From: Ignavibacteria bacterium
Lineage (GTDB): Bacteria; Bacteroidota; Ignavibacteria; Kapaibacteriales; UBA2268
Length of the DNA: 64,000 nucleotides
NCBI GenBank assembly: GCA_026417135.1
Contig: JAOADV010000001.1
Coordinates: forward strand, 62,001 to 126,000
Reading direction: 5' to 3'
In this document: positions 43,893 to 49,144 of the stretch, in pieces
Layout: each line of letters opens with the position of its first letter
Numbering within the stretch: position 1 is the first letter of the stretch
The notes under the pieces: generated by a model
Told to the model about the DNA's origin: nothing
Database searches by the model: none
Seen by the model: only the letters and a program-made list of their open reading frames with translations
Program-made: the position numbers and the translations under genes

Positions 43893-45113
43893 TTATTTTT
43901 TAAACTTTGCCAAAATTTCCTTAACAGCGTCTTTGTGAATAGTTACGATTAGCATTTTTAGCTTCAGATAATCTTCGTGGTAGAAGTAGTAGCCTTTATT
44001 TGGTCCATTGAAAGAACCACTTCCCGAATCTTTTATAAGAAACCAAAAAACTCCATTTGTTTCTTTATAACCAACAAGATGTACGCCGTGGTCGTCTTGT
44101 GTAGTGTTATTAGAAAAGCGAAATTGCCTTGAATACTCATCGATAAAAGCAGAGGGGATATCAAAAGATGGAACAATTGCAACTTCATAATGGGATTCGA
44201 TACCCGGTTCGGTAACATCCCCTCCGATTACAAAAGTAAAGCCTTTTTTTATTGAACTTTTTATGATATCCATAAAAACATCGAGTGGGACATTGTAATA
44301 GCTGGAATCATTCCACCAATTGTCTGGGACATCGAACTCTACTTGTTGCCAATATGGTTTTTCCATTAATGACAGAAAATCAACATAATCGTCCAAATTC
44401 AATTTTAAACGTTCTTTGATAAAAGATTTCGGAGTGTAAGTATTATTTTGATAAACAAATTTTTGTGGGGGTTCTCCAATGTACAAATTAAGAATTGATT
44501 TAACAGTCGAAATCACGAAATCTTCGTTCCAAAGACTTTTTTCCTTTACATAATCAAGAAATTTTTTAAATTCTGAAAAAAGTTTGCTATGGTCGAAATG
44601 TTTTTGTCCTTCAAGTTTGCCCGGAAAAACCTCGTAAGGTACGCAACCATAGGTTTTCCATATTCTAATAACAGCGTTTGGTTCGCTGCCTTCTCCCAAA
44701 AAAGATTCCCCACGTGTTTTGACAAAATATCGTGCTTTTTCGATATATTCCCAATAAACCGTGTGCATTTCGGAAATTTTCACCTTTTCCCCAGTCAACC
44801 TGTAAATCTCAGATTCAAGGAACGATGTAGTTGCAAAACTCCAACAAGTTCCTGTTGCCCCTTGAGGAATAGGTTCATTATGCCAAAAATATTTAAATTC
44901 TTCCTTCGACTTCGGTAACTGCATACCTTCGAAATCGACAATGAAACGCATCTTTTTCTTTTCAGGTTTTTTCCAATAATCTTGTGTGGACTTATGAATT
45001 TCCTCCCAAAACTCATTTTTTGGCTCGATGAATTTGCCTTTGTGACGTGGTTGCTCCTGAGAAAAAACCGATATACTACTAAATAAAACTAAAAACAACA
45101 AAACCTTTACCAT
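43893..45113 (-). CDS. Exported C1-family (papain-fold) cysteine peptidase, aminopeptidase C-like
   Basis: A 406-residue protein with a signal peptide (MVKVLLFLVLFSSISVFSQ, cut near residue 19). The papain-fold residues are Cys90 in GATGTCWSFATTSFLESE and His342 in DDHGVHLVGY. The third position, normally Asn in a KNSWG-like motif, reads IKDSGSG, with Asp362. The architecture and length resemble the C1B bleomycin-hydrolase/aminopeptidase C group, but export suggests degradation of peptides in the periplasm or outside. The start at 45113 is backed by GGAGG four bases upstream. It diverges from the HAD-UbiA gene. Confidence 0.85.
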   Translation of the reverse strand: MVKVLLFLVLFSSISVFSQEQPRHKGKFIEPKNEFWEEIHKSTQDYWKKPEKKKMRFIVDFEGMQLPKSKEEFKYFWHNEPIPQGATGTCWSFATTSFLESEIYRLTGEKVKISEMHTVYWEYIEKARYFVKTRGESFLGEGSEPNAVIRIWKTYGCVPYEVFPGKLEGQKHFDHSKLFSEFKKFLDYVKEKSLWNEDFVISTVKSILNLYIGEPPQKFVYQNNTYTPKSFIKERLKLNLDDYVDFLSLMEKPYWQQVEFDVPDNWWNDSSYYNVPLDVFMDIIKSSIKKGFTFVIGGDVTEPGIESHYEVAIVPSFDIPSAFIDEYSRQFRFSNNTTQDDHGVHLVGYKETNGVFWFLIKDSGSGSFNGPNKGYYFYHEDYLKLKMLIVTIHKDAVKEILAKFKK

Positions 45114-45168
45114 ACTCCCTCCAAAAAAATGCAATTTAGGAATAACTACACAAATCCTCAGACTTGTT

Positions 45169-45193: not shown

Positions 45194-46621
45194 ATGAACG
45201 AAAGTAATAAAAAATTACCCATTTGCGTAGATTTAGATTACACAGTAATTAATAGCGATATACTAATTGAATCGATACTACTGTTTATTAAGCAAAACCC
45301 TTTACATATTTTCTTATTATTTTTTTGGTTTTTGAAAGGGAAAACTTATTTAAAACGACAATTACATAGAAAGGTTAAAATAGATATTGCAAATCTTCCC
45401 TACAACGAAAACATACTGAATTTTTTACGAAAGAAAAAAAAGGAGGGACACAAATTAATTCTTGTTACTGCTTCTTTACAAGAAATTGCTGACGAAATCA
45501 ACAAAAATTTACAACTTTTCGACGAAGTTTTTGGAACACAAAATAGCTATAATCTCAAAAGTAAGAACAAGGCGTTATTTTTGAAAGATAAATTTGGGTT
45601 AAAAGGCTTCGATTATTTAGGAGATTCTATTTTCGATTTGCCAGTTTGGAAAATTGCAAACAAAGCTTTTGTAACTTCAGATTTCAAATTCGTCATCAAA
45701 AAAGTATCCAAGTTAAAAAACTTTGCAGAAAACTTAGGACAAGTTGCAACATTCAAAGACTTTATCAAATCAATTCGAATTCATCAATGGATAAAAAACA
45801 TATTAATTTTTGCGCCTTTACTACTGGCTCACAGGTTCGACGATACATTGTTATTCGTCCAATGCCTTATTGCTTTCGTCTCTTTCTCACTCGTTGCATC
45901 ATCTTGTTACATTATCAATGATATATTCGATATTGCAAACGATAGAATTCATCCTCAGAAAAAAAATCGCCCGATTGCCTCGGGGAAAATCTCTGTTTAC
46001 AAGGCAATGTTCTATTCCTTTTCAATTTTATCATTAGGCTTGTTCCTTTCAAGTTGGGTGAATTTCAATTTTTTCTTGTTACTCTTGTTCTATTCTTTTA
46101 TTAATTTAACATATACCAACTATTTCAAGTATATTTTCATTATAGACTTTTTCACACTTGCAAGCTTATATGTCGTTAGAATTTATGCCGGAAGCATTGC
46201 TTCTTCTGTTGAAGTTTCAAACTGGCTTTTGGCTTTTTCTATGTTCTTTTTTATTTCTCTTGCTGTGCTCAAAAGATATTCCGACCTAATTCAGAACGAA
46301 AACAATTCAAATCTTACTGGAAGACCTTATAATGTACAATCTTCAATAATGTTGTTAACAATTGGATTATCGAGTGTTTTCGCATCAACAATAATCCTAA
46401 TTCTTTACATCAATACTCAGAAAGTTTTGCAATTTTACAAAAGTCCGAACTTCCTTTGGCTCGATGCTTTTCTTGTGCTCCTTTGGTCCTTGCTTCTTTG
46501 GAATGACGCTAACCAAAGAAAAATAGCATACGACCCAGTAACCTATGCTTTAAAAGACCCTAAAACCTTATTCATCGCTTGTTTAATTATAGCTATTTGG
46601 ATTTTGGCGATTATAGTGTAA
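45194..46621 (+). CDS. HAD phosphatase fused to UbiA-type prenyltransferase (probable polyprenyl-phosphate phosphoribose synthase)
   Basis: A 475-residue two-domain protein. Residues 1-190 are a HAD hydrolase: motif I CVDLDYTV (Asp13, Asp15), motif II LVTAS, a Lys before motif IV, and GDSIFDLP. The rest is a UbiA membrane prenyltransferase with RIHQWIKNILIFAPLL, a hallmark of decaprenyl-phosphate phosphoribose synthases, and the metal motif NDIFDIANDRIHP, plus about eight helices. By homology it would join PRPP to a polyprenyl phosphate and the HAD part would remove the 5-phosphate. The next gene is the DprE1-like oxidase of the same pathway, overlapping by one base (TAATG). Confidence 0.85.
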   Translation: MNESNKKLPICVDLDYTVINSDILIESILLFIKQNPLHIFLLFFWFLKGKTYLKRQLHRKVKIDIANLPYNENILNFLRKKKKEGHKLILVTASLQEIADEINKNLQLFDEVFGTQNSYNLKSKNKALFLKDKFGLKGFDYLGDSIFDLPVWKIANKAFVTSDFKFVIKKVSKLKNFAENLGQVATFKDFIKSIRIHQWIKNILIFAPLLLAHRFDDTLLFVQCLIAFVSFSLVASSCYIINDIFDIANDRIHPQKKNRPIASGKISVYKAMFYSFSILSLGLFLSSWVNFNFFLLLLFYSFINLTYTNYFKYIFIIDFFTLASLYVVRIYAGSIASSVEVSNWLLAFSMFFFISLAVLKRYSDLIQNENNSNLTGRPYNVQSSIMLLTIGLSSVFASTIILILYINTQKVLQFYKSPNFLWLDAFLVLLWSLLLWNDANQRKIAYDPVTYALKDPKTLFIACLIIAIWILAIIV

Positions 46622-47928
46622 TGAAAAATTATCAATCTTGGGGACTTTATCCAAAATCAGAATTCAAAGAAATTATTCACCTCGACTGGCGGCACGAAAC
46701 AATTGACTTTACAAATTTTTCACCTCATTGCCTTGTATATGGTTTAGGTAGAAGCTACGGAGACGTTTGTTTAAACAATGGTGGCATACTTTTAGATGCT
46801 TCCTCATTAAATCATTTTATCGATTTCGACCCAAACAATGGAATTTTAAAGTGCGAAGGTGGAGTAACTTTATCGGAAATTTTAAACTTTGTGGTTCCAA
46901 AAGGCTGGTTTTTACCAATAATACCGGGAACAAAATTTGTAACTGTTGGTGGAGCAATTGCAAATGATATCCACGGAAAAAACCATCATAAAAAAGGCTC
47001 ATTTGGACACTTCGTCAACAAATTTGAGCTTATACGGTCGAATGGCGAAAGATTAATTTGCTCGAGAAATACAAATAAAGAACTTTTCTTCGCTACTATT
47101 GGTGGTTTAGGTTTGACTGGAATTATACTCTGGGCAGAATTGCAATTAAAACCAATTTCATCTTCATACATTTATGTCGAATCTATTAAGTTTTCGTCAA
47201 TAGAAGAATTTTTCTCAATAAATGAGAACTCGGAACAAGAATTTGAATACACAGTCGCTTGGCTTGATTTTTCAGTCCCATCACTCAACAACTGTCGAGG
47301 AATTTATCAAAGGGGAAACCATTACGAAAAAGACATCGCAAAGGCCAAACGAAAAACAAAGTTCGCAATTCCTTTCGTTGCTCCATTTTCCCTAATTAAC
47401 AAATGCTCGATTACCACCTTCAACTTTTTATATTATATCAAAGAACAAGAAAAAATTTCAAAATCCATTGTCCATTTCGAAAAATTCTTTTTTCCGTTGG
47501 ACAACTTAGAAAACTGGAATTATCTATACGGAAAAAATGGTTTTTTTCAATATCAATTTGTAATACCAAAAAGCGACGGACCCTACAAATTGAAGGCTTT
47601 TATCAATGAATGTAAAAAACTCAATCTTCTTTCATTCCTAACCGTAATAAAAACATTTGGAAAATTTGAAAATTCTGGATTACTTTCTTTTCCACGAGAA
47701 GGGATAACATTAGCTGTCGATTTCCCATTCCACAAAGAAATTTTCGTGAAACTCAACAAATTAGACGATTTGATAATGGAATTCGGTGGTGCACTCTATC
47801 CAGCAAAAGATTCGAGAATGAGTCCTAAAATGTTTCTTCAATCTTTTCCAAATCTTAATGAATTTTTAAAATTCAAGGACCCACTATTTAGCTCATCATT
47901 TTGGAGACGAGTAGCAAAGTCAGTGTAA
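46621..47928 (+). CDS. DprE1-like FAD-dependent oxidase (polyprenyl-phosphoribose 2'-oxidase)
   Basis: A 435-residue oxidase of the VAO/D-lactone oxidase type. FAD-binding blocks are VYGLGRSYGDVCLN and GGAIANDIHGKNHHKKGSFGHF, and the C-terminal ALYPAKDSRMSP matches the DprE1 active-site region. DprE1 oxidises decaprenyl-phospho-ribose to the 2-keto form, later reduced by DprE2 to the arabinose donor. I start at ATG 46621, whose first base is the last base of the upstream TAA. No DprE2-like reductase follows; the next gene is on the other strand. Confidence 0.88.
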   Translation: MKNYQSWGLYPKSEFKEIIHLDWRHETIDFTNFSPHCLVYGLGRSYGDVCLNNGGILLDASSLNHFIDFDPNNGILKCEGGVTLSEILNFVVPKGWFLPIIPGTKFVTVGGAIANDIHGKNHHKKGSFGHFVNKFELIRSNGERLICSRNTNKELFFATIGGLGLTGIILWAELQLKPISSSYIYVESIKFSSIEEFFSINENSEQEFEYTVAWLDFSVPSLNNCRGIYQRGNHYEKDIAKAKRKTKFAIPFVAPFSLINKCSITTFNFLYYIKEQEKISKSIVHFEKFFFPLDNLENWNYLYGKNGFFQYQFVIPKSDGPYKLKAFINECKKLNLLSFLTVIKTFGKFENSGLLSFPREGITLAVDFPFHKEIFVKLNKLDDLIMEFGGALYPAKDSRMSPKMFLQSFPNLNEFLKFKDPLFSSSFWRRVAKSV

Positions 47929-48106: not shown

Positions 48107-49144
48107 TTATTCGAATTTTCTTTTGAAAAATAGAGCAGCATTAACTAATCCTATTAAAACTGGAACTTCTACAAGTGGACCAATAACAGTTGCAAAAGCA
48201 ACTTGTGAATTTATCCCGAAAACTGCTACGGCAACAGCAATGGCAAGTTCAAAGTCGTTACTTCCAGCGGTAAAAGCAACCGTTGTTGTTTTCTCATACG
48301 AAATACCTTGTCTTTTCACAAAGAAAAAAGTTGCAAAGAACATTATTGCAAAGTAAAAGGTATAAGGGATTGCCACTCTTATTACATCCAAAGGTAGTTC
48401 TACGATTTTTTCACCCTTTAAAGAAAACATTACAAAGATTGTGAAAAGAAGAGCAATGGGTGTAAGAATCGATATTTTAGGTATGAATTCTTTATGATAC
48501 CATACTTTCCCTTTATACTTAACAAGGATTAAACGCGTCAGCAATCCACTTGTAAAAGGAATCCCTAGATATATGATGACCGTTGAAGCGATTTCCCAGA
48601 TAGAAACATTCACCAATGTTCCACTCATACCAAATATTGGTGGCAAAACTGTTATAAAAATATATGCATAGATTGAATAAGTCAGTACTTGAAACAATGC
48701 ATTGAATGCAACTAACCCAGCAGCCAGTTCAGAATCACCTTGAGCTAAATCGTTCCAAACTAATACCATTGCTATGCAACGGGCTAACCCAACAAGAATA
48801 ACACCGAAAGCCATTTCAGGTTTATCTGGGAGAAAAATTAAAGCAAGAGTAAACATAACAATTGGTCCTATAATCCAATTTTGAATTAGCGATATTGTGA
48901 GGAGTTTGATGTTGCTAAAAACAATTGGCAGTTCTTCATATTTTACCTTGGCTAAAGGTGGATACATCATAAGAATCAATCCAATTGCAATAGGATAATT
49001 TGTTGTTCCAATGCTTAAAGAGTCCCAGAATAAGGCAATATTTGGGAACATTGAACCAACCAAAACCCCCAAAAACATCGTGATAAATATCCATAAAGTC
49101 AAATACTTGTCGAAAAACGAAAGTTGTTTAACTAACTTGCTCAC
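48107..49144 (-). CDS. ACR3-family arsenite (or related metalloid) efflux carrier
   Basis: A 345-residue membrane carrier with ten predicted helices. Family blocks are [23 protein letters not shown], and [19 protein letters not shown], which holds the conserved Cys of ACR3 proteins. It should export arsenite driven by the proton gradient. The start is GTG 49144 with AGAGGG upstream. No arsR or arsC lies next to it, and a long non-coding region precedes it. Confidence 0.9.

Follow-up and report, generated by a model that had tools for sequence, protein, structure and literature searches.

Does a HAD-UbiA fusion followed by a DprE1-like oxidase belong to a pathway for a lipid-linked arabinofuranose donor when the reductase that would complete the epimerisation, DprE2, is not encoded beside it, and if so, where is that last step? 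This question is raised by a plus-strand unit of two genes in the window, the 64,000-nucleotide stretch of Ignavibacteria DNA analysed here, in which the fusion and the oxidase are bordered on both sides by genes on the minus strand. Lipid-linked arabinofuranose is best known from mycobacterial cell walls, and its use has also been inferred for the pili and O antigens of certain Gram-negative bacteria. We consider it likely that the pair encodes early enzymes of the polyprenyl-phospho-D-arabinofuranose pathway and that DprE2 is supplied from a second locus of the same genome.

Organization of the two-gene unit

The coordinates of the unit (45194-47928), of its flanking genes and of the second locus are collected in Table 1. 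The mechanical open-reading frame of the oxidase opens at a TTG codon at 46579, and the start backed by homologues, which gives the N-terminus MKNYQSWG, is the ATG at 46621; we take the latter as the likely start. In all four relatives of the same genus in which the junction was read (L107-L110), with the frames taken from the aligned C-termini of the fusion, it has the form ATGA, a four-base overlap. The geometry of these overlaps suggests that the fusion and the oxidase may be translationally coupled. The sequence-only reading had described a HAD-UbiA fusion overlapping a DprE1-like gene with DprE2 missing from the neighbourhood, and this description was borne out: both genes are real, the fusion is intact, the overlap is a single base, and no DprE2 adjoins the pair, both flanking genes being unrelated. 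Upstream lies a gene for a C1-type peptidase and downstream one for an ACR3 arsenite efflux transporter; neither shows an evident connection to the pathway.

Table 1 Features of the two-gene unit, its flanks and the second locus (window positions, or contig C6 of the window's genome, G000)
Feature	Position	Strand	Size or residues	Basis or remark
C1-type peptidase	43893..45134	-		flanking gene
HAD-UbiA fusion gene	45194..46621	+	475 aa	NF006088 512.5 bits, Pfam HAD and UbiA, alignment
HAD phosphatase domain	45230..45541	+	residues 13-116	PF12710; VDLDYT at residue 12 (D13/D15), VTAS at 91
UbiA membrane domain, DPPR synthase-like	45749..46618	+	residues 186-475	NDIFDIANDR 242-251, KKNRPIASG at 256
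TAATG junction	46619..46623	+		one base common to fusion stop TAA and oxidase start
DprE1-like FAD oxidase	46621..47928	+	435 aa	NF053785 359 bits, PDB DprE1 1.5e-75, in 33/40 genomes
ACR3 arsenite efflux transporter	48107..49144	-		flanking gene
PMT_2 (GT-C) glycosyltransferase	C6:101-1567		488 aa	DprE2 47 bases downstream
DprE2-type reductase	G000:C6:1615-2352		245 aa	other contig

A DprE2-type reductase at a second locus

The window's own genome was searched for a DprE2-type short-chain reductase, a course suggested in the sequence-only reading, using the reductase of a gammaproteobacterial locus (L005) described below. The search matched G000:C6:1615-2346 at 41% identity with an E value of 5.6e-61, while the next-best SDR scored 1.7e-23. 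The two best models for the C6 reductase are PRK07102 (NF005489, 235.8 bits) and DprE2 (NF053786, 156.3 bits), and it falls under the cut-offs of both, which are 267 and 250, respectively. Judged from these matches, the window genome is not missing DprE2; rather, the predicted reductase sits in another locus. For the final step, the sequence-only reading had allowed that DprE2 was elsewhere, that it had been replaced, or that the keto product was otherwise used. The first of these stood and the other two did not, the last being set aside once a DprE2-type reductase turned up in the genome. A neighbourhood without DprE2 should therefore not be taken as a lost step.

Directly upstream of the reductase gene lies a PMT_2 glycosyltransferase gene, one of seven PMT_2 matches in the window genome; six of the seven are over the cut-off, and none is tied to pentofuranose transfer. 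The adjoining PMT_2 protein had no PDB sequence match at 0.01, and of the genomes outside the genus in the sample of 40, just two (G014 and G017) gave a match to it, so a role for it as arabinosyltransferase would be a guess. A search of the window genome for flippases of the GtrA type gave no match.

Conservation of the pathway genes in relatives and across the phylum

The distribution of the genes was followed in a sample of 40 genomes, consisting of the window's own genome (G000) and 39 relatives. DprE1 is present in 33 of these, exactly the genomes that also have the fusion or its UbiA part, with the DprE1 and UbiA genes neighbouring in 28 and apart in five. At a threshold of 1e-30, DprE2 was found in 31 of the 40 genomes, 30 of which have DprE1 and one of which (G005) does not. 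The DprE2 of G019, missed at this threshold, adjoins DprE1 and contains a run of 64 N; with it counted, 31 of the 33 DprE1-bearing genomes have DprE2. Of the 31 genomes with both, 18 have DprE1 and DprE2 side by side; in the other 13, which include all five members of the window's genus, the two are apart. Four of the genus members (G000-G003) retain PMT_2 next to DprE2, and in G004 these two genes lie on separate contigs.

Across a phylum sample of 392 genomes, DprE1 (at 1e-40) and DprE2 (by profile, at 1e-45) were each found in 78, a DprE2 count that leans towards the relatives above because the profile was built partly from them. Both genes occur together in 72 genomes, DprE1 alone in six, DprE2 alone in six, and neither in 308 (Fisher p 7e-64, uncorrected for relatedness).

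These distributions bear on whether the 2-keto product might meet another fate, being consumed or reduced without the C6 reductase, so that the final sugar would not be arabinofuranose. Such a diversion would fit the position of DprE2, which is transcribed separately from the fusion-DprE1 pair and not co-located with it, and the two DprE1-bearing genomes, G016 and G034, in which DprE2 was not found. However, G016 is only 85% complete and the contig of G034 ends 664 bases past DprE1, while the window genome itself and nearly all other DprE1-bearing relatives do carry a DprE2-type reductase and the co-occurrence of the two genes is strong throughout the phylum. On balance, we regard a product other than arabinofuranose arising in this way as unlikely, and reduction by the C6 enzyme as the preferred reading.

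Full-length fusions, running from the start of the HAD domain to the end of the UbiA domain, were found in 35 of the 392 genomes, of which 32 also have DprE1 and three (G059, G073, and G205) do not; arabinose can thus not be predicted from the fusion alone. The three exceptions, all from family f29 of the same phylum, have neither DprE1 nor DprE2 at the thresholds used and are perhaps ribofuranose-only systems. In four other relatives (G024, G033, G030, and G038; loci L104, L120, L125, and L126, respectively), DprE1-DprE2 clusters contain a UbiA protein without a HAD domain, and a separate phosphatase would thus be needed there. This variation in the phosphatase, fused or absent, makes the relatives useful comparative material.

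GLF, the UDP-galactopyranose mutase, is encoded in 19 of the 40 genomes and in none of the five members of the window's genus. In six of the 19 GLF-bearing relatives (G007, G008, G010, G012, G013, and G019), the fusion has the GLF gene as its immediate upstream neighbour, and loci L119, L113, and L102 belong to three of these six. We take this adjacency to resemble the arabinogalactan clusters of mycobacteria, and it suggests joint production of galactofuranose and arabinofuranose in the six genomes. For the window genome, a galactofuranose link was dropped and, given the lack of GLF in its genus, no arabinogalactan-like polymer is proposed for the source organism.

The DprE1-like oxidase

The oxidase scored 359.2 bits against the DprE1 model NF053785, with the next family at 47 bits, yet it does not reach the equivalog cut-off of 500. 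We therefore call it DprE1-like, a name that reflects by far the best family match together with a score under the cut-off. A PDB sequence search gave a similar result, with solved mycobacterial DprE1 as the best match and xylitol oxidase next, at 2.4e-11. A place outside the DprE1 clade would have told against the sequence-only reading, and it is to DprE1 that the protein proved closest. In an alignment of 16 rows, the flavin and active-site residues examined are conserved except at two positions. The positions of Tyr60, His132, Lys367, and Lys418, which belong to the active site of the M. tuberculosis enzyme (numbering checked against the 461-residue chain 21gq), are identical in 16/16 rows. 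The two exceptions are the position of Asn385, which is Thr in the window oxidase and in the aligned rows Thr in 15/16 and Ser in 1/16, and that of Cys387, the benzothiazinone-reactive site, which is Ala in the window oxidase (residue 365) and in the rows Ala in 15/16 and Thr in 1/16. The DprE1 of M. avium also has Ala at 387, where it is associated with resistance to inhibitors that bind DprE1 covalently (PMC11124399). A natural Ala at the Cys site of benzothiazinones makes these oxidases, too, useful for comparison.

The replacement of Asn385 is one of three observations that would suit a simpler system, in which the pair's product stops at polyprenyl-phospho-ribofuranose, destined for ribose decoration, and the DprE1-like protein has some other substrate to oxidise; the others are the fusion-bearing genomes of the phylum sample without DprE1 at 1e-40 and the characterised Citrobacter O1 fusion, which serves ribofuranose addition without DprE1 (PMC11127046). 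In the window, however, the DprE1 start overlaps the fusion stop, the two genes remain neighbours in most relatives, and the Lys, His, and Tyr active-site positions of DprE1 are unchanged in every aligned row. A pathway ending at ribofuranose thus appears improbable for this locus, to about the same degree as the diversion of the keto product, and we continue with the oxidase as a candidate enzyme of arabinofuranose synthesis.

The HAD-UbiA fusion

The fusion matches NF006088 (PRK08238), a curated family, over its full length (residues 3-474), scoring 512.5 bits where the cut-off is 351, indicating that its architecture is that of an already known protein family. In addition to the motifs listed in Table 1, a GDSIFD motif begins at residue 143, just past the Pfam HAD span, and the Pfam UbiA match (PF01040) covers residues 209-398. 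The nucleophile motif of the HAD domain and the Asp-rich motif of the UbiA domain are both intact, and N242, D243, D246, and D250 are invariant in 17/17 aligned rows.

The UbiA half scored 147 bits with DPPRS models, compared with 36 for haem O synthase and 27 for UbiA_proteo, the model of the 4-hydroxybenzoate enzymes, although it remains under the DPPRS equivalog cut-offs (207-474 bits). In a tree of 13 rows, the fusion and M. tuberculosis DPPRS were split from the three other UbiA proteins of the genome with a support of 0.97, and those three proteins carry CtaB-like or MenA-like signatures. The best PDB fold match of a structure model of medium confidence (mean pLDDT 66.7, from a five-row alignment) was 8j8j, M. 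tuberculosis DPPRS, with an E value of 4.5e-10. By family score, tree, and fold, the UbiA half therefore resembles DPPRS, and the whole protein is predicted to be a polyprenyl-phosphate phosphoribosyltransferase that carries a built-in phosphatase for the 5-phosphate. The weakest alternative, a quinone or haem prenyltransferase only incidentally associated with DprE1, draws on the breadth of PF01040 and on the weak matches of the UbiA half to such enzymes, and it was rejected as highly improbable on the model scores, the tree, and the presence of separate MenA-like and CtaB-like paralogues. Grouping with the quinone-synthesis enzymes, the placement that would have told against the sequence-only reading, was seen in neither the scores nor the tree.

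Proposed pathway and significance

Taken together, these results point to a pathway in which the UbiA half would transfer phosphoribose from PRPP to a polyprenyl phosphate, the fused HAD domain would remove the 5-phosphate, DprE1 would oxidise C2 of the ribose, and the DprE2-type reductase of contig C6 would reduce the ketone with inversion to give arabinofuranose. Export by a flippase might follow, and arabinofuranose might then be added to a surface glycan by a GT-C enzyme, for which the PMT_2 protein beside the reductase is one possibility; both of these steps, like the acceptor, are guesses. Each enzymatic step is carried over by analogy from established work on relatives, and both PRPP use and the arabinose end product would be expected in the source organism on the same grounds. 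Most likely, all enzymes up to the donor are present and split over two loci, as far as their sequences can indicate. The three activities that the sequence-only reading had assigned to the unit, namely phosphoribosyl transfer, 5-phosphate removal, and 2'-oxidation, are supported by the DPPRS-like UbiA domain, the intact HAD and UbiA motifs, and the DprE1-like oxidase, and the arabinose-type donor it had envisaged is supported as well.

A lipid-linked arabinofuranose pathway would thus be widespread in a lineage that has received little study. No literature on DprE1 or the pentofuranose pathway in Bacteroidetes, Bacteroidota, or Chlorobi was found in a survey of titles and abstract openings. 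The chemistry itself has already been described (PMC11127046), and our finding mainly extends a known pathway. Tentatively, and as a possibility we rate well below the assignment of the pair itself, the D-arabinofuranose donor pathway may be near-core in the lineage (33/40 genomes with fusion or UbiA part and DprE1) and may feed an undescribed arabinofuranose surface glycan, in some members beside galactofuranose, so that an arabinogalactan-like polymer could exist outside mycobacteria and related bacteria. The split seen in the window's genus would then pair the committed reductase with a genus-specific GT-C transferase.

Comparison with known systems

Six loci were found for comparison (L005-L010), of which L005-L008 were annotated further. 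A similar arrangement is seen in gammaproteobacterial loci. In L005, L007, and L008, the fusion and DprE1 are followed by a reductase of 245-246 aa, within fusion-DprE1-DprE2-SDR-FAD-GtrA clusters; the best models for the L005 and L007 reductases are PRK07102 and DprE2, and in L006 the contig stops inside DprE1, after the fusion. As in these clusters, DprE1 directly follows the fusion in the window, and the proteins are 40-49% identical. In contrast, L005, L007, and L008 have DprE2 and a GtrA gene in the cluster, whereas in the window system DprE2 lies elsewhere and GtrA was not found.

A characterised fusion of the same build is ORF15 of Citrobacter youngae O1, in which a DPPRS-like UbiA domain likewise follows an N-terminal HAD phosphatase; it was shown biochemically to make farnesyl-phospho-ribofuranose from PRPP, and its HAD Asp mutant accumulates the 5-phosphate product (Kelly et al. 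2024, PMC11127046). The residues mutated in ORF15 (PMC11127046) correspond, by motif, to the invariant N242, D243, D246, and D250 of the window fusion. The ORF15 locus also encodes a flippase of the MATE type and a GT136 transferase, a three-component pentofuranose system that serves ribofuranose, and systems with DprE1/E2 homologues are proposed to supply arabinofuranose (PMC11127046). Unlike ORF15, the window fusion is followed by DprE1, with neither a flippase nor a GT-C gene in the locus.

The mycobacterial DPA pathway (Rv3806c, Rv3807c, DprE1, and DprE2) differs from the window system in that the phosphatase of the latter is a fused HAD domain and not Rv3807c, which has been described as unrelated to HAD-family PRPs (PMC11127046). 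The window DprE1 also has Ala at the Cys387 position, and its DprE2 is encoded in another locus. What the two pathways share is a DPPRS-like UbiA protein together with DprE1 and DprE2 homologues, a combination that argues for epimerisation on the lipid in the window system as well.
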